Shown here: piece after piece, positions 5,867 through 32,935 of the stretch | Numbering within the stretch: the first letter of the stretch is position 1 | How the letters are laid out: the number at the start of each line of letters is the position of its first letter | Virus record (IMG/VR): IMGVR_UViG_3300035170_000019 | Coordinates: 1-46,065 of that record | DNA length: 46,065 nucleotides | Strand: one strand, 5' to 3' | From: a virus | Program-made: the position numbers and the translations under genes | The notes under the pieces: model-generated | Database searches by the model: none | The model's input: the letters and a program-made list of their open reading frames with translations, nothing else | What the model was told of the DNA's origin: nothing

Positions 5867-5890
5867 AAAATGTGGGTCCGAGCTGACACC

Positions 5891-6289
5891 ATGGCACTCA
5901 TGAGTCAACGCTCTGAGTTGTGGCACGGCACCGTAGACGGCTACCGCGGGCGCGGATGCCGTTGTGAACCATGCCGGGGCGCCAGCTCGGGTGCGAACAA
6001 GAAGCGGCACGAAGAGTTCAAGGTGTGGCTGGCGGAGATCAAAGACCAGCCGTGCGCAGACTGCGGGATCAAGTACCCAACCGTCTGTATGGATCTCGAC
6101 CATCGGGACCCGTCTACAAAGCTGTTCATAGTGGGGTCTTCCGCGATGCGGAGCCGTGCCTCGCTGGTAGCCGAAGCCGCGAAGTGCGATGTGGTGTGTG
6201 CCAACTGCCACCGACTGAGGACGGCCAAGCAGTGGGCCGAGGGGGCCATTACCCCCGGCCGACCTCGCAAGCAGACAAACGTCCTCTAG
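5891..6289 (+). CDS. HNH homing-type endonuclease
   Basis: A 132-residue HNH nuclease encoded opposite to the leftward head operon, between the large terminase and portal blocks. Two zinc knuckles are visible (CADCG and CANCH), with the catalytic-type DLDHRDP segment between them and CANCHRLRT as the last HNH block. An N-terminal CRCEPCRGA motif adds two more Cys pairs. I chose ATG 5891 (MALMSQRSEL) because residues upstream look non-coding and contain SOS box 2; ATG 5900 is the alternative. Free-standing HNH genes near terminase genes are either homing enzymes or packaging co-factors; here the opposite strand favours an invader or a separately regulated nuclease. Its stop is 20 bp from the convergent terminase stop. 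Confidence 0.85.
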   Translation: MALMSQRSELWHGTVDGYRGRGCRCEPCRGASSGANKKRHEEFKVWLAEIKDQPCADCGIKYPTVCMDLDHRDPSTKLFIVGSSAMRSRASLVAEAAKCDVVCANCHRLRTAKQWAEGAITPGRPRKQTNVL

Positions 6290-7637: not shown

Positions 7638-8116
7638 GCCAGCGTGCCGGGATCGATGCCCGCCAACTCGTACTTGACGGTGCCGGTGTGACTGATCTCA
7701 GTCTTCGCGTTCAGGCCGAGCAGCCGCGCCTCCTGGTCGTCGAGCTTCACCAGGCGGTCCACGGCGGCCAGCACCGGCGCCGGGTCCCCGATCGTCGCGC
7801 CGTCCTCGTACATGACTTTGCCGTTGGACACGATGATGTGGTTGTCGGCGAGGATGTTCATCACGACTTCGCGTTCCATGTCGATGCGGCGCAGCTGCTC
7901 TTCCAGGCGTGCGGCGCGGACGGCTTCGTGCGCGGCGACAGCGGCGGCGGGGATGTTGCGCATCGCGGCCTGGTAGTGCTGCCACACGGTGGCCACGCTC
8001 AGGCCGACTTCTTCGGCGATCTGCCGGAAGCTCAGGTCTTCGCCGCGGAGCTCGACGATGCGCTTCCGGAGCTCCGCGGTCTGGTGCCGGCGGTTGCCGT
8101 GCTCACCGGCTACCAC
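7634..8116 (-). CDS. Terminase small subunit
   Basis: A 160-residue DNA-binding subunit placed directly before the large terminase and overlapping it by four bases. A helix-turn-helix is readable at residues ~28-48 (LSFRQIAEEVGLSVATVWQHY). The middle is a charged helical stretch rich in Arg and Glu (~60-90) likely to form the oligomer, and the C-terminus (LDDQEARLLGLNAKTEISHTG) resembles the tail of many actinophage small terminases. The GTG start at 8116 is the first available; no strong ribosome site decides it. Confidence 0.85.
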   Translation of the reverse strand: MVAGEHGNRRHQTAELRKRIVELRGEDLSFRQIAEEVGLSVATVWQHYQAAMRNIPAAAVAAHEAVRAARLEEQLRRIDMEREVVMNILADNHIIVSNGKVMYEDGATIGDPAPVLAAVDRLVKLDDQEARLLGLNAKTEISHTGTVKYELAGIDPGTLA

Positions 8117-10185: not shown

Positions 10186-10186
10186 A

Positions 10187-10218
10187 CGAAGCCCCCGCCA
10201 GCAAGGGCGGGGGCTTCG
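10187..10218. terminator. Convergent terminator hairpin
   Basis: CGAAGCCCCCGCC (10187-10199) pairs perfectly with GGCGGGGGCTTCG (10206-10218) around a six-base loop. It sits exactly between the stop of the rightward island (10185) and the stop of the leftward early operon (10222), so it can stop transcription from both sides. No long T-run, as is usual in actinobacteria. Confidence 0.85.
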
Positions 10219-10221
10219 TCG

Positions 10222-18465: not shown

Positions 18466-18501
18466 GGCCGCCTCGCTCGACCCTCGACGAGCGAGGCGGC
18501 C
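18466..18501 (-). terminator. Perfect 14-bp stem-loop downstream of cytosine methyltransferase
   Basis: GGCCGCCTCGCTCG (18466-18479) pairs perfectly with CGAGCGAGGCGGCC (18488-18501) over an eight-base loop. It stands in a 227-bp gap between the methyltransferase second frame (stop 18659) and the next start (18431); the rest of this gap shows nothing else. It is a likely actinobacterial-style terminator or attenuator inside the early operon. Confidence 0.65.
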
Positions 18502-20206: not shown

Positions 20207-20526
20207 TGGTTCGCCCCCGCCCAGGTGTCGGCCAGCATCGCGTTGAACCGGTCCTTGCGCGGCTTGAGATCGTGCGTGGCCCGGTACTCACGCATGTACT
20301 TGGCGTCCGCAGCCAAGCAGGCCTCACACGTCGGCTCTCCGTTGCGCTTGTGGCGGTTGACGCCCGAACGCGTCCCGCATTCGGCGATCCGCGGTGGGTA
20401 CGGCGACTTCGGGTTCAGCGCGTTGATCGCGTCCTTGCAGGGGCGGCAGGCGTCCTCGCCGAGCTTGCGGTGACGGCGGTAGCCCTGCGGGGTGCCGCAG
20501 CGCACAGGCTGGAGTTTGGTGCTCAC
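20203..20526 (-). CDS. Protein with two CGT-GYRRHRK-CxxC repeats
   Basis: A 107-residue protein made of two copies of a ~35-residue unit: RCGTPQGYRRHRKLGEDACR with PCKDA, and ECGTRSGVNRHKRNGEPTCE with ACLAA. Each has the C-G-T-x-x-G-x-x-R-H-(K/R) x-G-E-x-x-C-x-x-C pattern, so each may bind one zinc ion. A basic tail follows (YMREYRATHDLKPRKDR). The pattern is widespread in Streptomyces phages; a nucleic-acid-binding role is plausible but unproven. A single divergent copy occurs at the end of the 16522-16896 product. Confidence 0.7.
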   Translation of the reverse strand: MSTKLQPVRCGTPQGYRRHRKLGEDACRPCKDAINALNPKSPYPPRIAECGTRSGVNRHKRNGEPTCEACLAADAKYMREYRATHDLKPRKDRFNAMLADTWAGANQ

Positions 20527-21290
20527 TTCGCAGCCTCCAGTGCCTTCGTTCCGAGCGCGCGGTGCAGGTCGTGCACGCCCTTCACGGTGACCCGCACCTG
20601 TGGCGGGTCCAGCACCAGCACGCCGGTGCGCGGGTGGTAGTGCGACGACGGCAGCTCCGACAGGCGCCCGGTCTCGATGGCGGTCTGCTTCACACGCCAG
20701 CGGCCGTCGCCAGCCCGGAACAGCCAGCCGAGACGCCAGAGCTCGGTGAACAGTCGCCGCTCGCCGGTCTTGATGCCGTCGCGGGTGAGGATCTTCGCGG
20801 CGTCGGCCACGGAGTAGTCACCGGCCGCCGAGGCGAGCGCTTCCCATGACGCGGCGGCCGGCGCGAGCTCGGCTATCCGGGTCTCGGCTTGCAGGCGACC
20901 GAGTTCGGCATCCCGCGCCAGCTCGATCAGCTCCAGGCGTGACAGCTCACGCGGAGCCGGTACGCCGTAGAAACCTGTGCGGCGGATTGAGGGGATGACG
21001 TCCTCGGCCAGCCAGTCCTGGAACTGCTCGGCCGCCATCAGGTTGCTGCGCATTACAAGGCGGTACACGCCAGCCTCGTTGATGACGGACATCTTCTGCT
21101 GGCCACCAAGGGTGTCGGCCAATCCGACACCCTTCATCCGCTCCGGCAGGCGGCTGGTGGCGTCGCGGCCGTTGCTGTATCCGAGGATCGCGGTGACGTC
21201 CGAGGCGACGAACCACGGCTCGTCGTCTAGGAGGATGGTCCGCACGGACTCGCCGGTGGCGGGGAATGTGAACGGGGTCAGGGCGCTCAT
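20523..21290 (-). CDS. Antirepressor-like protein, Bro-N and KilA-C type
   Basis: A 255-residue protein from ATG 21290, overlapping the RecT-like gene stop. The N-terminal ~105 residues are a Bro-N domain (PWFVASDVTAILGYSNGRDA, MSVINEAGVYRLVMRS, DWLAEDVIPSIRRTGFYG). The C-terminal part resembles the KilAC/ANT domain (SVADAAKILTRDGIKTGERR, LFTELWRLGWLFR). Proteins of this build act as phage antirepressors or early regulators, so it may oppose the repressor of the 24.8-25.0 kb switch. Confidence 0.85.
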   Translation of the reverse strand: MSALTPFTFPATGESVRTILLDDEPWFVASDVTAILGYSNGRDATSRLPERMKGVGLADTLGGQQKMSVINEAGVYRLVMRSNLMAAEQFQDWLAEDVIPSIRRTGFYGVPAPRELSRLELIELARDAELGRLQAETRIAELAPAAASWEALASAAGDYSVADAAKILTRDGIKTGERRLFTELWRLGWLFRAGDGRWRVKQTAIETGRLSELPSSHYHPRTGVLVLDPPQVRVTVKGVHDLHRALGTKALEAAK

Positions 21291-22561
21291 GCGGCGACCG
21301 CCTTTCCGGTCGTGGCCAGCTCGCTGTCGCGCTTCAGGCTGATGTCCTGGAGTTTCGACACGTCGGCCTGCGTCAGGTTCCCGGCCTCGTGCTCGGTCCA
21401 CATGCGCTCCGACACGTCGGCCAGCTCCTCGGACGACACCGCGGCGTGCATGGCCGTGGTGAGCCGGTCCATCAGCTCGGCGTTGTCCGTCTCGGGCGGC
21501 GTCAGCTCGCCGAGCAGCCGGTCGGCTTCGTCGAAGTGCAGGTCCTTCATCGCGCCGAGCTGGCGGCCGAGCTTGCTGCCGCACCAGGCGAGCAGCGCGG
21601 TCCGGTCGTCGATGCCGATCTCGGCCAGCGCCTTCTTCAGCGCCGTCAGCTGCGCGCCGGATGCGTAGGTCGGCGGCACGTCCGGCGCCATGGCGACCTC
21701 GGACTGCTGACGCTCCTGCTTCGACTGCGCGCGGTGCTCCTCGCGCAGCGTCGTCAGCACGAGGTCGGCTTCCTCGGCGGTGAGTTCGGTCGGTCCGGCC
21801 AACTCGCGGCCGACGATCTCCTGTACCGCCGCGAGCATGCCGAGCGGGTCGGTGAGTCCGCGAACAGCGCGCAAGCCGTTGCCGATCGATTCCCGCTGTT
21901 CGGCGGTTGCCTCGGCCGGGGTCTCGGCTTCCTCCACCACGTCCGCGTACTCGGCCTCGGCCGCCTTCTGCGCCATCGCCGCCGGTGCGGTCGCCCACGG
22001 GTCGTCAGCGGTCTGCGCGTACTGCCGCACCGTCCGCTGCTCCAGTGGGTTGCCTTCCGCATCCGTCTCGGCGCCGAGCTCCTCAGGCGTGTAGTGCAGC
22101 CCGAACAGGATCTCCTCGCACGCATCCCGGGCCACCTGCGTGATCGCGCGGGATTTGAGCATCGACGACGGGTAGCTCTTCCACACCGCCTTGGTGGTCA
22201 GTCCTGCCGTTCTGGCGTCCTCGATGGTGAACGTCACCGAGAACGTGTAGTCGGGGTCATCTGCGCGGATAATCTGCGCGGTGGCCGAGCGAGCGTCGCC
22301 GGTGACGCGGAGCTTGTGGCCGGCGCGGCGGACCAGGCCGCCGATGAGCGCGGCCGAGGCGGACGGCTTGCCCTCGATGACGTGGATGCCGGTGATGGCG
22401 GCCATCGGGGTGACGCCGAGGGTCTCGCCGTACTCGATGGCCCACAGGACGTTCGCGGGCTTGTCGCGGAACTGCTTCGGCAGGATGTCTGAGCAGGCCA
22501 GGCTGTCCGAGTAGGCGATCTTCTCGGTGATGCTGGCGCTGCGGATCGCGAGCTCGGTCAT
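21287..22561 (-). CDS. RecT-like single-strand annealing protein
   Basis: A 424-residue protein. The N-terminal ~190 residues match actinophage RecT-type annealing proteins: DILPKQFRDKPANVLWAIEY, GVTPMAAITGIHVIEGKPSA, AALIGGLVRRAGHKL and YPSSMLKSRAITQVARDACE. The C-terminal half (~190-424) is acidic and helical, with LTALKKALAEIGIDDRTALL and DLHFDEADRLLGELTPPE, and is much longer than in ordinary RecT. It would promote annealing of single strands in replication or circularisation. No partner exonuclease is obvious next to it. Confidence 0.8.
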   Translation of the reverse strand: MTELAIRSASITEKIAYSDSLACSDILPKQFRDKPANVLWAIEYGETLGVTPMAAITGIHVIEGKPSASAALIGGLVRRAGHKLRVTGDARSATAQIIRADDPDYTFSVTFTIEDARTAGLTTKAVWKSYPSSMLKSRAITQVARDACEEILFGLHYTPEELGAETDAEGNPLEQRTVRQYAQTADDPWATAPAAMAQKAAEAEYADVVEEAETPAEATAEQRESIGNGLRAVRGLTDPLGMLAAVQEIVGRELAGPTELTAEEADLVLTTLREEHRAQSKQERQQSEVAMAPDVPPTYASGAQLTALKKALAEIGIDDRTALLAWCGSKLGRQLGAMKDLHFDEADRLLGELTPPETDNAELMDRLTTAMHAAVSSEELADVSERMWTEHEAGNLTQADVSKLQDISLKRDSELATTGKAVAA

Positions 22562-25044: not shown

Positions 25045-25557
25045 ATGAGGAGCATGGATGCAGACAGGGGACGCCTTGCCACAGCAATTCAGCGTCGCCG
25101 CGAAGCGCTGGGGTTCACCCAGGTTCAGCTGGCCAAGCTGGCGGGAGTCACAGACACGACGATCCGAAATCTAGAAGGCGGCCGTCAATTCACGAGACCG
25201 CCGGCAAGCCTTCCCGCCGTCGAACAAGCCCTCGGATGGGTACCGGGCAGTGGACAGGCCGTTCTCAACGGCGGCGAGCCGACGCTCGTAGCCGACGCGC
25301 TCGCCGCCGAAGTCGAGGACTTCGCCACCCGCTACGAGATCGAGGACAGCCCGGACGCCGTCGGCGACGTGGGTACGATCGTTCGAGACACAGTCTTCGA
25401 AGTGATCGGGGTTCTCGCGCCGGACACGCCGCTGAGTCAGGTCCGTGACATCGAGGCACTTGCACTTGAGGCTGTTCTTCGCCGAGGCGGAAGGCCACTT
25501 CGCAGGCATCCTCAGGCATATCAGGAGCCTGCGGAGATCAACAACAGCAACGAGTGA
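25045..25557 (+). CDS. HTH repressor-type protein (probable immunity repressor)
   Basis: A 170-residue protein. Residues ~8-70 are an XRE helix-turn-helix (RLATAIQRRREALGFTQVQL, AKLAGVTDTTIRNLEGGRQF, LPAVEQALGWVPGSGQAVL). The rest is acidic and helical (EVEDFATRYEIEDSPDAVGD, TIVRDTVFEVIGVLAPDTPL) with no visible S24 peptidase motif, so it would not self-cleave as lambda CI does. ATG 25054 is an alternative start. It lies opposite the Cro-like gene and next to the integrase, as expected for the lysogeny repressor. Confidence 0.75.
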   Translation: MRSMDADRGRLATAIQRRREALGFTQVQLAKLAGVTDTTIRNLEGGRQFTRPPASLPAVEQALGWVPGSGQAVLNGGEPTLVADALAAEVEDFATRYEIEDSPDAVGDVGTIVRDTVFEVIGVLAPDTPLSQVRDIEALALEAVLRRGGRPLRRHPQAYQEPAEINNSNE

Positions 25558-25902: not shown

Positions 25903-26799
25903 TTACTGCGCCCCGAAGATGCGCTGATGCTCCTCCAGCGCGCGGACGTTGGCCCGGGCGCCCGCATACACTTTGATCATCTCCATGTTGTCCCACCCCG
26001 CAATCGCCATCAGGCCGTCCACCGAGCCGCCCTCCGACAGCCAGTTGTCTGCGAAGGTCCGCCGGAAACGGTGCGGGTGCACGTCCTCGACGCCGGCCAG
26101 CGCCGCGCGGCTCTTCACCATCTCCCACAGACCGTCGTACCCGAAGGTGCGGCCGTGTGCCGGTAGCCAGACGCGCTCTGTCGTGGCCGCGAGGGCGTGG
26201 CGTCTGCGCATTCTCAGGTACCGGTCGAGCGCGAGTGCCGTCTCAGGCCTGAAGGCGGCCAGCCGTTCCTTGTCGCCCTTGCCCTTGAACAGGACGCGCC
26301 CCTTCGGCACCCACAGGTTCGACAGCAGCAGGCCGGTGATCTCGCTGGACCGGCCGCCGGTATCCACCATGAACCGCAGCAGCGCCGCGTCACGGCGTCC
26401 CATGAACGAGTTGTCGCACGTGGCCACCATCGCGGCCAGCTCGTCGGCGGACAGCGGCGGCCGGTAGTGCTTGCCGACTTTCGGGTAGGCCAGGCCCGCG
26501 ATCTCGTCCTTCGGCAGCTCCTCTTCCGCGACGCACCAGGCTACGAACAGGCGTATGGCGGTGAGGTAGTTTGCGGCCGTGGTCGGCTTGCCGCCGCGGT
26601 CTTCACCGAGGAAGTCGGCCAGGAACGCCTGGACGTGCCCGCCGGTCAGGTGCGGGTCGTCGCCTTGGCGTGCGCACCACTTCGTGTAGGCGGTGAGGCC
26701 CTTGCCGTAGGTGTTGATCGATCCCTTGGACTTGTTCTCGGCCCGGAGCTTCAGGAACCACGACTCACGGAGCTGCTCGAACTCATCGGCTGTTGGCAT
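25903..26799 (-). CDS. Tyrosine recombinase (phage integrase)
   Basis: A 298-residue site-specific recombinase. The N-terminal SAM-like core-binding domain covers ~1-105 (SINTYGKGLTAYTKWCARQG, ANYLTAIRLFVAWCVAEEEL). The catalytic domain shows Arg 150 (DTGGRSSEI), Lys in FKGKGDKER (~174-177), His 243 and Arg 246 (HPHRFRRTFADNWL), Trp 269 (IAGWDNM) and the nucleophile Tyr 278 (IKVYAG). It is somewhat short for a phage integrase and resembles XerC/D-like enzymes, lacking an obvious arm-binding domain. It proves a temperate lifestyle. The attachment site could not be fixed. Confidence 0.92.
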   Translation of the reverse strand: MPTADEFEQLRESWFLKLRAENKSKGSINTYGKGLTAYTKWCARQGDDPHLTGGHVQAFLADFLGEDRGGKPTTAANYLTAIRLFVAWCVAEEELPKDEIAGLAYPKVGKHYRPPLSADELAAMVATCDNSFMGRRDAALLRFMVDTGGRSSEITGLLLSNLWVPKGRVLFKGKGDKERLAAFRPETALALDRYLRMRRRHALAATTERVWLPAHGRTFGYDGLWEMVKSRAALAGVEDVHPHRFRRTFADNWLSEGGSVDGLMAIAGWDNMEMIKVYAGARANVRALEEHQRIFGAQ

Positions 26800-28047: not shown

Positions 28048-28080
28048 GCGGAGCCGACGACCCGAATACGTCGGCTCCGC
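28048..28080 (+). terminator. 12-bp hairpin terminator after the 27603 gene
   Basis: GCGGAGCCGACG (28048-28059) pairs perfectly with CGTCGGCTCCGC (28069-28080), with a nine-base loop, 11 bp after the stop codon. Confidence 0.7.
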
Positions 28081-28315: not shown

Positions 28316-28360
28316 TATGGCACCCCTACCATTGACATTCCATGGTAGGGGTGCCATAGT
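28316..28360 (+). promoter_or_regulatory. TTGACA promoter framed by a perfect 17-bp inverted repeat
   Basis: TATGGCACCCCTACCAT (28316-28332) is repeated in inverse at 28342-28358 with a nine-base centre. The centre and arm edge contain TTGACA (28332-28337), and 17 bp later comes CATAGT (28355-28360). The -35 thus sits in the loop, and the right arm runs across the spacer to the -10. This is a strong promoter under direct operator control for the gene starting at 28403. Confidence 0.8.
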
Positions 28361-28402
28361 TGGTGGTGAAGGGGAAACCAACCACTCACCAAGGAGCCCA
28401 CC

Positions 28403-28900
28403 ATGGAAGCCCTCACCGCCACCGACATCCTCGGCTTCTACGCCAACCGCCGCAACGAGTACCTCGCCATCGAAAACGGCGAATACGTCCACCTCGGCGC
28501 CGATGACATCCTCGACGGCGACCCCGTGTCGTACAACTACGTCACCACCCACCAGGGCGCCGAGGCTCAGATCCTGCTCAGTCGGGACACGATCAGCGAA
28601 GGCGACTGGTTCCCGCTCGACGAGGACGGCGCCCTCAGCCCCGAGACCGCCGCCGAAATGGCCGACATCATCAACGACGACGCTGGGATCACGCTTACCA
28701 CGGCCGTCGAGCGCGCGCACGAACTTGCCCAGCTGGCCGAGCACGCCGCCGCCGAAGCGCAGCTCTCCGCAGTCGCCCGCGCGTGCGGTGTCGCCCGCGT
28801 CGTCAGCCTGTGCGGCGGCAACCAGTCCGAGGCCGCACGGCGCCTCGGCATCGACCAGTCCACCGTTAACAAGCTCGTCAAGAAGGCGCAGGCCGCCTGA
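28403..28900 (+). CDS. Protein with C-terminal Fis-type HTH (probable autoregulator)
   Basis: A 165-residue protein after a canonical promoter and AAGGAG. The N-terminal half is acidic (ATDILGFYANRRNEYLAIEN; SEGDWFPLDEDGALSPETAA). The C-terminus carries a helix-turn-helix of the Fis/HTH_8 kind (VVSLCGGNQSEAARRLGIDQ, STVNKLVKKAQ). It may bind the 17-bp inverted repeat over its own promoter. Ends at a strong convergent terminator. An acidic N-terminal effector domain joined to a small HTH could serve a moron-type regulator; no family name is justified. Confidence 0.68.
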   Translation: MEALTATDILGFYANRRNEYLAIENGEYVHLGADDILDGDPVSYNYVTTHQGAEAQILLSRDTISEGDWFPLDEDGALSPETAAEMADIINDDAGITLTTAVERAHELAQLAEHAAAEAQLSAVARACGVARVVSLCGGNQSEAARRLGIDQSTVNKLVKKAQAA

Positions 28901-28905
28901 TTCCG

Positions 28906-28954
28906 GACACGCGAAAACGCCCGGTCGCGAGATGCGGCCGGGCGTTGGCGTGTC
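28906..28954. terminator. Convergent terminator between accessory island and lysis cassette
   Basis: Outer stem GACACGC/GCGTGTC (28906-28912, 28948-28954) and inner stem AACGCCCGG/CCGGGCGTT (28916-28924, 28938-28946). It lies between the rightward stop at 28900 and the leftward stop at 28953 and can serve both. Confidence 0.78.
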
Positions 28955-29588
28955 AGCTACAGGAGTACTGCGGCCACGGGGTGCCGGTGGTCGGCGTGCA
29001 GGTGTGAGTGTGCGGGTTGCCGACGGGCGGCGTCTCCACGTACACCCAGCCGGACGGTGCCGGACCGGACGGGCCCGCAGGACCAGTCGGACCCGGTGCG
29101 CCCGGCTCGCCGGTGGGACCTGCACTACCAGAGGGACCTGCAGCACCCGTAGGCCCGGGAGGTCCCGTGGGACCTGCAGCGCCGGACGGTCCTGCAGTAC
29201 CGGGAGCCCCGGAGGCGCCAGCAGCACCCGATGGCCCTGCAGTACCAGGGACCCCGGCCGGCCCTGCAGGACCCGGCGACCCCGGCGCACCGCTCGGACC
29301 CGAAGGACCCTCCGGACCCGTCGCACCCACCGCCCCAGGCGGCCCGACCTGAGCAATGATCTGCTGCGGCGGCGGCTGCGACGGCTCGATCCCGTGCTGC
29401 TTCAGCTGCTCCTGCGCGCCGGCCAGATTCGACGACAGCGCCGCCACGACCTTCGCCTGCTGCTGTAACTGGGCCGACGTCGCGTGCAGGTTGATGATGG
29501 TGTACACGACCAGGCCGAGGATCAGCAGCAGCGCCGCCAGCAGAATGTGCCAGAGGCGATCTCGGACCGCGCGGGTCAGAGTGACCAT
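28953..29588 (-). CDS. Membrane-anchored collagen-like protein
   Basis: A 211-residue protein in four parts: a short basic start, a membrane helix ([20 protein letters not shown], ~15-34), a coiled coil ([20 protein letters not shown], to ~70), then ~32 Gly-X-Y triplets (~82-178; [16 protein letters not shown] and so on), and a C-terminal tail with two Cys ([17 protein letters not shown]). The repeat is Pro-rich at X and Ala/Ser/Thr-rich at Y. With Arg and few charges before the helix, it would insert with the collagen part outside the cell. It should form trimers. Last gene of the leftward late operon. Confidence 0.82.
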
Positions 29589-29958: not shown

Positions 29959-30213
29959 TCAGCCCTTTGCCGGTGGCGCGGGGTCGGTGGTCGGCGGCGT
30001 TGCGGGCGGAGCGGGCGGCGCCAGGACCGCGGTCACGGTCGGGAGCGGCGCGACCGGCATCAGCTGCCGCAGCCCGGTCTCAGCGGCGCCGACGAGCATC
30101 GCCCACAGCGACGACCAGCCGACGTGGCCGCCGGTCGCCAGCAGCAGGGCGACGAACGCCAGGCCGGACGTGCGGACGAACCGGAGCGCCTGCGCCTTCA
30201 CATGCGCGCTCAC
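29959..30213 (-). CDS. Holin candidate
   Basis: An 84-residue protein whose GTG start overlaps the endolysin stop. It has two hydrophobic stretches (LRFVRTSGLAFVALLLATGG, SSLWAMLVGAAETGLRQLM) and a Pro-rich, uncharged end. Size, topology and direct coupling to the endolysin make it the best holin candidate in the window. Alternatives are the proteins at 29590-29922 and 31546-31695. Confidence 0.68.
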   Translation of the reverse strand: MSAHVKAQALRFVRTSGLAFVALLLATGGHVGWSSLWAMLVGAAETGLRQLMPVAPLPTVTAVLAPPAPPATPPTTDPAPPAKG

Positions 30214-31106
30214 TTCGCCACCACCTGCAAGCCCAGGTGCGCCACGACCGCCTTGGCGACCGCGTCCGGGTCGACGCCGCCGGTCAGGTGCGGCGCCAGC
30301 GCGTTGGCCAGGGCGTTGACGTCGACCGGCGGGGCCTGCCGGGCGGCGAGTGCGTTGATGGCGTCGCGGGCCTGGCGGGCGTACAGCGCAGCCGCACGGG
30401 CGCCGCCGTCGGCCCAGATGATGGCGGACGAGTCGTCGTAGCTGCCGACGAACTCACCGGCGATCTCAGGCCACTTCTGGCCGATGCTCGGGGGGATGGC
30501 GGGCACGGTGCCTCCAGTGTTCGGGATTGGTGTGGTGGTGGCGCCCCATGCTCCAAGGGCGCCGAGGTTCATGATCTGGTTCACGTCGACCTGCACGCCG
30601 CCGACGCTCTGTTCGGTGCCGGTCTGCCGGGCGGCCGCGCGGGAGTCCCACTGTCCGCCAGACCACGCGATCGTCTGCCACGTGGCGTATCCGACGGCGG
30701 CCGCCGACTGCACGACCCTCAGACCGCCGTACACGCCGACACGCGACGCCCCATCCACCGAGGCCGCGCCGTTCAGGAACGCGACCACGATCGACGTCTG
30801 CGACGGAGAGGCGTCGAAGTCAGCCGAGTAGAAGATCCGGGCATCGGCCGGCGCACCGAGCGCGGCCGCCTGCTGCCGGGCCGAGCGCGCACATGCCACG
30901 CCCGCGCTGTAGCCGCCGAGCATGAAGTCGGCGGTGGTCTCGTAGTTCAGGACGATCGGGATCCCCGCGGCCAGCAGCTCCCGCGCCTCGGCCGCGGTGA
31001 GGTTCTTCGGCCAGCCCGGGTTCGACAGGTAGCGGAACACCACCTGGCAGCCTGCCGCCTTCAGCGCGGCCGGATCGATCCGCTCGGTGTAGTCGAAGCC
31101 GCTCAC
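30210..31106 (-). CDS. Endolysin, DUF1906 (Rv2525c-like) glycoside-hydrolase domain
   Basis: A 298-residue lysin from GTG 31106. The N-terminal ~195 residues form a TIM-barrel of the DUF1906 type: VSGFDYTERIDPAALKAAGC, VVFRYLSNPGWPKNLTAAEA, GIPIVLNYETTADFMLGGYS, FYSADFD and GGVQVDVNQ; the Asp in GFDY and the Glu in NYET are the likely acid residues. No signal peptide. A linker with PNTGGTVPAIPPSIGQKW leads to a helical C-terminal part with PHLTGGVDPDAVAKAVVAHL, possibly for wall binding or oligomerisation. It should cut peptidoglycan glycan strands. Confidence 0.82.
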   Translation of the reverse strand: MSGFDYTERIDPAALKAAGCQVVFRYLSNPGWPKNLTAAEARELLAAGIPIVLNYETTADFMLGGYSAGVACARSARQQAAALGAPADARIFYSADFDASPSQTSIVVAFLNGAASVDGASRVGVYGGLRVVQSAAAVGYATWQTIAWSGGQWDSRAAARQTGTEQSVGGVQVDVNQIMNLGALGAWGATTTPIPNTGGTVPAIPPSIGQKWPEIAGEFVGSYDDSSAIIWADGGARAAALYARQARDAINALAARQAPPVDVNALANALAPHLTGGVDPDAVAKAVVAHLGLQVVAK

Positions 31107-31549
31107 GGCTTCACCTGCCGCGCCGGGACGAACTCGGCCGCCGGTGCGGAACCGTCCTTCATCCAGCGGTTCGCCTCCCACAGCGCGGCAGGCAGGACGT
31201 GTACGCCCAGCTTGGTCCTGTGGTGGGTCGCGCACAGCACCTCGAGGTTGCCGGGACTCTCGGCCCAGCGCTGGAAGTCCTCATCGTTCTCGAAGTGCAG
31301 GCCGAGCGCGCGCTCGAGCTTGTGCGAGTCGGCGCTGTTGATCTGCGAAAACTCCACATGCGTGTGGTGCAGCTCAGCCTCGCCCTCGCACCGGGAGTCG
31401 CCGATGACGCACTTCCACAAGCCCTGTCGCTTCAGGCGCGCCTTCGCCTGCTCAAACAGGTGATAGTGCGGGTCGTCCTCACGCGGGGCGTGGTCTGGGA
31501 CGTGGGACAGGATGTGCAGGGTCTGCATTTGGTCGTGCGCTGCGGTCAC
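31103..31549 (-). CDS. HNH-like endonuclease or HNH-fold protein in lysis cassette
   Basis: A 148-residue protein from GTG 31549, coupled by four-base overlaps to both neighbours. It contains GLWKCVIGDSRCEGEAELHH, THVEFSQ, and LEVLCATHHRTKLGVH: two Cys and a HH-x-H block followed by CxxHH, as in HNH nucleases. Its tight coupling in the operon differs from the free-standing HNH at 5891 and suggests a native role, not a homing element. Function in lysis or packaging is unknown. Confidence 0.7.
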   Translation of the reverse strand: MTAAHDQMQTLHILSHVPDHAPREDDPHYHLFEQAKARLKRQGLWKCVIGDSRCEGEAELHHTHVEFSQINSADSHKLERALGLHFENDEDFQRWAESPGNLEVLCATHHRTKLGVHVLPAALWEANRWMKDGSAPAAEFVPARQVKP

Positions 31550-31735: not shown

Positions 31736-32935
31736 TCACAGCTTGCTGACGTCGACCGCACCGGCCATCGCCAGCATCCCGGCCGCGTTCGGGTGGATGT
31801 GGCCGGAGTCGTCGTACATCCCGGCCAGCGCGGCCCCGGCGCCGACGGCCGAGTCGAAGTCGGCGACGCCGTCAGCGCCGCTCGATCCGGCCCGCACCCA
31901 GGCGTTGTACGCCAGCCGCTGCGTCTCGAACGCCGAGGTACACAGTGACGCGCCCGCGCACGGCGTGATGGTCGACAACAGCACCCGCAGCCCCGCCGTG
32001 TGAGCCGACGCCACCAGGGCCGCCTGTGCGGACTCCAGAGCTGCCGCCGACGCCCCGGCGCGCAGATCGTTGATGCCGCCCGCGTCGATGACCGTCCGGA
32101 CGCCGGTGACGCCGAGGACGTCATGCTGCCAGCGGTGCTGGAGCGACGGGCCGCCGCCGCTGCCGAGGTCGGCCATCACCTGGTTGCCGCTAATGCCCTC
32201 GTTGACCACGGCCAGGCCGGAGCGGCGCGCCAGGTAGTCCGGCCAGCGGGTGTCGGTGTCGATCGGGGTGCCGCCGGTATCGGTGATGGAGTCGCCGACC
32301 GCCACGACCGTCTGAGCCGTGGCAGAGTTGGTCTCGACGCCCGCGACGTAACTCTCGAACCCGAAGGTGTTGTTCACCGGCGGGGCCGTCATCATCGTCG
32401 CGTCCTGGCCAACGATGTTGTATTCCGTGTCCTGGCTGTACGTGTGCGCGTTTGCCGTCTGCACCGCTGGCGTCGGCGGGAGGAACAGCGACACGAGCAA
32501 GCGCTCGCCGGGCGTTGTTGTGTATGTGAGCGGGTCGGACGTCGCCTCGGCCCCGGCCGCCATCGTCACCGACGTGGAGCCGTTGAACGTGACCGCGACC
32601 GGCGTCCCGGCCGACTGCGCGCCGTTGAGCTGCTGCGCCACCGACACGTGCGCCAGCGTGACCGCGTCGGACGCGAACTCGTCCGACAGGTGCACCCGCA
32701 GCTGCGTCCCGCCGAGGACAACGGACACCTCCTCGCGCAGCGTCATGTTCGACCAGCCGGCGCCGCCAGACCCGACCGGCATGCCGTGGTCGATTGCGTA
32801 GCCGCCGGACTGCGTCCACGGGCCGGCAGGCGCGCAGATCTGGCCCGAGGACGCGGCGGCCGGTGCGCTAATAGCGAGCGCGCCGGCCAGCGCCGCAGCG
32901 GCAAGCTTCAAGTAGCGGTTCAAGTTCAGCCCCAT
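31736..32935 (-). CDS. Secreted SGNH/GDSL-type hydrolase
   Basis: A 399-residue protein with a clear signal peptide (basic start NRYLKLAAAALAGALAISAP, then AAASSGQ). A beta-rich segment (~60-200) precedes the SGNH domain: block I VAVGDSITD with Ser 216, block II GISGNQ, block III GGINDL and block V HIHPNAAG with His 381. The Asp normally three residues before that His is Gly 378; Asp 375/376 may replace it. Such proteins remove acyl or acetyl groups from sugars or lipids. The gene overlaps the tail-tip gene by ten bases. A signal peptide is odd for a virion part, so it is either exported by the host or used in lysis. Confidence 0.85.
   Translation of the reverse strand: MGLNLNRYLKLAAAALAGALAISAPAAASSGQICAPAGPWTQSGGYAIDHGMPVGSGGAGWSNMTLREEVSVVLGGTQLRVHLSDEFASDAVTLAHVSVAQQLNGAQSAGTPVAVTFNGSTSVTMAAGAEATSDPLTYTTTPGERLLVSLFLPPTPAVQTANAHTYSQDTEYNIVGQDATMMTAPPVNNTFGFESYVAGVETNSATAQTVVAVGDSITDTGGTPIDTDTRWPDYLARRSGLAVVNEGISGNQVMADLGSGGGPSLQHRWQHDVLGVTGVRTVIDAGGINDLRAGASAAALESAQAALVASAHTAGLRVLLSTITPCAGASLCTSAFETQRLAYNAWVRAGSSGADGVADFDSAVGAGAALAGMYDDSGHIHPNAAGMLAMAGAVDVSKL

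Follow-up and report, generated by a model that had tools for sequence, protein, structure and literature searches.

What reads a long, perfect inverted repeat that has a promoter built into it? The question is raised by a 43-base palindrome (positions 28316–28358) in a 46-kb IMG/VR virus record, whose whole stretch of 46,065 nucleotides is called the window here. The window carries portal, protease, major head, terminase, tape measure, collagen-like fibre, endolysin and integrase genes, and this set of structural and lysis genes together with the integrase identifies its source as a temperate tailed phage. The palindrome comprises a left arm or half-site, TATGGCACCCCTACCAT (28316–28332, plus strand), a 9-nt centre, TGACATTCC (28333–28341, plus strand), and a right arm, ATGGTAGGGGTGCCATA (28342–28358), which presents the same half-site on the minus strand. 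No other perfect inverted repeat in the window with a loop of up to 30 nt is as long. When the window was simulated 30 times with a first-order Markov model, the longest inverted repeats measured 9–14 bp, compared with 17 bp in the real sequence. A chance origin is ruled out by these simulations together with the conservation described below, and the perfect 17-bp inverted repeat around a TTGACA promoter reported in a preliminary description of this DNA is thereby confirmed. No further copy of the half-site with up to three mismatches was found elsewhere in the window (0.03 expected by chance).

The promoter consists of a −35 element, TTGACA (28332–28337, plus strand), and a −10 element, CATAGT (28355–28360, plus strand), the latter preceded by TGC. 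With its 17-nt spacer, the pair matches the consensus at 10 of 12 positions and has the TG ahead of the −10 that is typical of extended −10 promoters. It was the single promoter found in a scan of the surrounding 1.6 kb, in which 0.1 would be expected. The preliminary description had placed the −35 box in the nine-base centre, which is correct for five of its six bases; the first T (28332) still belongs to the left arm, which ends with it. The right arm had been said to cover the spacer up to the −10, and this needs a similar adjustment: most of the spacer and the first four bases of the −10 (CATA) fall within the arm, and the palindrome stops at 28358, two bases short of the end of the −10 (28360). 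Both elements are invariant in nine related loci at a spacing of 17–18 nt, and from this conservation the promoter is judged to be functional. A ribosome-binding site, AAGGAG (28391–28396, plus strand), read directly from the sequence, is located 6 nt ahead of the ATG of the following gene.

That gene (28403–28900, plus strand) encodes a 165-aa protein, the proposed autorepressor, with a beta-rich N-terminal domain, a long helix and a C-terminal Fis-like helix-turn-helix (HTH; about residues 137–161). The earlier proposal that the next gene encodes an HTH protein is upheld by the PF02954 (HTH_8) profile, which scores the window protein at 22.0 bits, borderline against the curated gathering cut-off of 22, and which matches three of nine homologues at E ≤ 0.01. 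An AlphaFold model (pLDDT 80.5) shows the same three parts, namely the beta-rich N-terminus, the long helix and the HTH. The Foldseek match to Fis covers the HTH alone (about 32–36 residues, rmsd 1.1–2.4) with a probability of 0.96–0.97, but with E about 0.6–0.8. In sequence, the C-terminal HTH aligns with Fis-like proteins of known structure (GNQTKASELLGLNRGTLRKKLK versus GGNQSKAARLLGLDQSTVNKLVK). No recognised relatives of the N-terminal domain were found. The recognition helix, DQSTVNK, is nearly invariant among the homologues, as would be expected if the half-site is constant. The gene probably has a transcript to itself, since the next genes lie on the opposite strand and a strong hairpin follows the gene. 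This stable hairpin (28909–28953, plus strand; RNA fold −39.9 kcal/mol, z −6.0), which has no T run, is the likely terminator of a one-gene transcript.

Homologues of the protein were found by tblastn in the Streptomyces phage-plasmid ZL12 and in two Streptomyces plasmids. A single-sequence query found no relatives in IMG/VR; an alignment of four sequences (the window, ZL12 and the two plasmids) retrieved five more full-length homologues from that collection. The eight full-length homologues are 44–53% identical, and all the named relatives of the locus are from Streptomyces. The same palindrome precedes every one of the eight, its centre 69–77 nt before the start codon, with TTGACA in its middle and CATAGT 17 nt further on (18 nt in one locus, L012). 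As the nine loci are homologous, they do not represent nine independent events.

Conservation across these loci is sharply bounded. Averaged over pairs of loci, the left arm is 90% identical (90.5% before rounding) and the −35 100% identical; the four bases of the centre that lie outside the −35 are 30% identical and vary freely among relatives. Identity in the 200 bases upstream of the palindrome is 25–31%, which is background, so that conservation has a sharp edge at 28316. In a blastn comparison with ZL12 around the locus, similarity begins at the palindrome's first base (28316) and stops inside the gene. The edge marks the end of the proposed mobile unit. Because a core promoter does not need the left arm, its conservation calls for another reader. 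The preliminary description held that the length and perfection of the repeat imply strong selection. The palindrome is indeed conserved at nine loci; its perfection is not, since the other copies contain 0–3 arm-to-arm mismatches, which suggests that selection holds the recognised sequence rather than perfection. The consensus half-site is TATGG-[CT][AG]-CCC[CG]-[TC]N-[CA]CAT, and ATGG-N8-CCAT is present in 17 of the 18 arms.

The palindrome is also tied to this gene and to no other. A whole-site model matched each of the nine records exactly once, while a single-arm model found only the two arms in eight of them, ZL12 adding one weak partial match (E 0.72). When a relaxed palindrome with any loop of 5–25 nt was sought in 2.9 million IMG/VR viral contigs, matches were confined to elements carrying the gene. 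Conversely, the 165-aa gene is the only window ORF matched in all eight other records, the runner-up being a terminase matched in four, in a comparison that left about 850 bases of one record unread and could miss divergent proteins. An operator for another element-encoded regulator is rejected because no other window gene is common to the nine records, and a phage-wide operator array is rejected because no record has a second site or half-site, apart from the weak partial match in ZL12. A phage immunity repressor would have multiple operators at lytic promoters, which the single site per record does not fit; a dyad site that overlaps a promoter and is conserved with the gene is found in nine of nine records, once in each. 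This exclusive linkage means that the binder is most simply either the gene's own product or something that the hosts supply.

We consider it likely that the palindrome is the operator of a mobile one-gene promoter–operator–regulator unit, whose own product binds it and represses. Autoregulation is the best reading given the conserved palindrome and promoter, the HTH gene immediately next to them, and the exclusive one-to-one link in nine otherwise different elements. We infer the binder, its repressive effect, its oligomeric state and the start site as follows. A sigma-70-type (HrdB-like) RNA polymerase would initiate from TTGACA-17-CATAGT, at about 28366–28368 and some 35 nt ahead of the ATG. 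As the Fis-like HTH protein, presumably a dimer or tetramer, builds up, it would come to occupy both half-sites. Protein on the right arm would cover the spacer and the −10, and protein on the left arm would flank the −35; polymerase would be excluded, and the gene would set its own level by negative autoregulation. The preliminary description had one bound dimer clamping the promoter from both sides, which is one possible arrangement. However, 17-bp arms are longer than one HTH dimer normally reads, and each could accommodate a separate dimer. Two dimers are therefore as likely as one, and the pattern of ATGG and CCAT at the arm ends (17 of 18 arms) argues in their favour.

Any wider regulatory role would have no visible target, since the only operator in each element is the protein's own. 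From the same observation that its own promoter is the only target within the element, the protein could be viewed as a mobile 'moron' regulator of Streptomyces phages and plasmids that recognises this 17-bp half-site at host genes; its operator would comprise four quarter-sites (ATGG/CCAT, about 12–13 bp spacing), with two dimers clamping the −35 between them. We regard this extension as doubtful.

The main rival to autoregulation is that a regulator of the Streptomyces host binds the palindrome and, depending on the state of the host, holds this accessory gene off or on, while the encoded HTH protein acts elsewhere. Host-controlled cargo promoters are common, the gene resembles mobile cargo in having a promoter and a hairpin to itself, and the host is, besides the gene itself, the only partner common to the nine elements. 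When 84,980 species genomes were scanned for exact matches to the ACC-type site ACCATTGACANNNNATGGTNNNNNTGNCA, however, no Streptomyces chromosome was among the hits, although this is a weak test, as the pattern represents some variants only and includes the −35. The matches obtained, in cyanobacteria and one Streptococcus, are chance-like. Control by the host is, on balance, unlikely, although less so than any other alternative considered here.

More improbable is an autoregulated activator or a sign-switching protein, in which a dimer on the left arm near −42 would help polymerase and a dimer on the right arm near −17 would repress at higher protein levels. Such an arrangement could be accommodated by the arms, as ATGG-N8-CCAT in 17 of 18 makes each a possible dimer site, and the centre of the left arm would lie near the class II activator position if transcription starts 7 nt after the −10. 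A promoter this close to consensus (10 of 12, with an extended −10) should, however, need no activator.

The repeat might instead act as RNA, for example as a terminator or attenuator hairpin in transcripts from upstream genes. Folding predictions give the single-stranded palindrome a strong hairpin whichever strand is taken (−34.1 and −33.0 kcal/mol, z about −6), but it has no T run. Nor is pairing preserved by compensation: covariation between the arms across relatives is no better than in shuffled alignments, and inner pairs 12 and 13 are broken in three to five of the nine sequences, pair 13-32 in five of nine. A hairpin would need neither the loop TTGACA nor the GT immediately beyond the arm, yet both are invariant, and the palindrome is not transcribed from its own promoter. 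An RNA hairpin function is accordingly rejected as very improbable. The lack of covariation above shuffles and the invariant TTGACA and GT indicate that the palindrome is most likely read as double-stranded DNA, not as an RNA stem.

Least probable of all is that the palindrome serves plasmid maintenance, as a centromere-like, replication or recombination site, and overlaps the promoter by accident: there is one copy per element, two of the records are plasmids and ZL12 is a known plasmid-phage (PMC7157519), but the nine records have no window gene for partition, replication or a recombinase in common, the window element carries a phage integrase, and the fixed register of the −35/−10 pair would be left unexplained.

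The control logic of the autoregulatory reading is familiar, and as a circuit it is ordinary. Autoregulated HTH repressors with a palindromic operator over their own promoter are known from lambda CI/Cro, TetR and systems of the QacR-IR1 type. The present locus shares with them an HTH gene directly downstream, a dyad operator over the −35/−10 and single-gene feedback. It differs from them in its Fis-like HTH, as against the lambda or TetR type, in 17-bp arms that are each held in sequence, and in having one operator per element and none at a divergent or lytic promoter. The C-terminal helix plus HTH resembles those of E. coli Fis and the NtrC C-terminal domains (PF02954), but in the 165-aa protein about 80 residues form an additional N-terminal domain, a long helix is also present, and the recognition helix is DQSTVNK, compared with NRGTLRK in Fis/NtrC. 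Fis binds a degenerate 15-bp site, whereas the site here is a long, specific palindrome.

ArdK is among the weak fold matches of the HTH (Foldseek, 39–40 alignment columns). KorA and ArdK are small plasmid-encoded HTH repressors; the KorA operator is an inverted repeat on the −10, while ArdK represses several promoters through direct repeats with TTGACA on the −35 (PMC9723621). The ArdK repeats contain the −35 itself, whereas the half-sites described here flank the −35 and occur once. Searches of Pfam, NCBIfam and PDB sequences gave no KorA family match, and the protein is without full-length homology to KorA/ArdK. Among actinophages, the sites of mycobacteriophage repressors are tied to promoters (PMC6550527, PMC9283540), and the stoperators are short, asymmetric and scattered over the genome (PMC9283540). 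The present locus has a single long symmetric site. As a mobile unit with one site per element, the regulator of these Streptomyces phages appears to be undescribed in the literature searched. From one odd repeat, the analysis arrives at a defined regulator–operator pair that is quick to test and that could be used as an orthogonal repressor/promoter part in Streptomyces. Moving as one block between unrelated phages and plasmids, the unit marks an uncharacterised cargo regulator retained by prophages and phage-plasmids.

A scan for other proteins with the DQSTVNK recognition helix gave one unrelated match besides the known loci. An XRE-type protein with the same helix is encoded in an unrelated phage contig (L017), where several TATGGC-N5-GCCATA dyads occur upstream of the XRE-type gene and at a second place (5890–5975 and 7753–7792 of that contig), resembling a CI/Cro-type control region. 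If the same helix does read TATGGC there, self-recognition at the present locus would be supported; with one example only, and with different HTH types, this stays a lead and not evidence.

Several other features of the window were recorded. A candidate phage repressor (HTH, phrog_6288; 25045–25557, plus strand) lies beside a tyrosine integrase (25903–26799, minus strand), and the regulator gene sits in the rightward block after this pair. Lysogenic cargo genes are often located in such a block following repressor and integrase. A collagen-like tail fibre gene with 18-nt repeats (28953–29588, minus strand) is convergent with the regulator gene. Also on the minus strand are genes for an Anti-repressor Ant family protein (20523–21998), for a Rv2525c-like glycoside hydrolase protein that matches a phage endolysin family (30210–31235) and, amid phage structural genes, for a GDSL lipase/acylhydrolase domain protein (31736–32935). 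Two further inverted repeats, at 10186–10219 and 18466–18501, have perfect 14-bp arms around loops of 6 and 8 nt and are likely terminators. Directly 3′ of a 144-aa ORF, a perfect 12-bp repeat, GCGGAGCCGACG/CGTCGGCTCCGC (28048–28080), folds with its flanks at −43.4 kcal/mol as RNA and is probably the terminator of the upstream gene.
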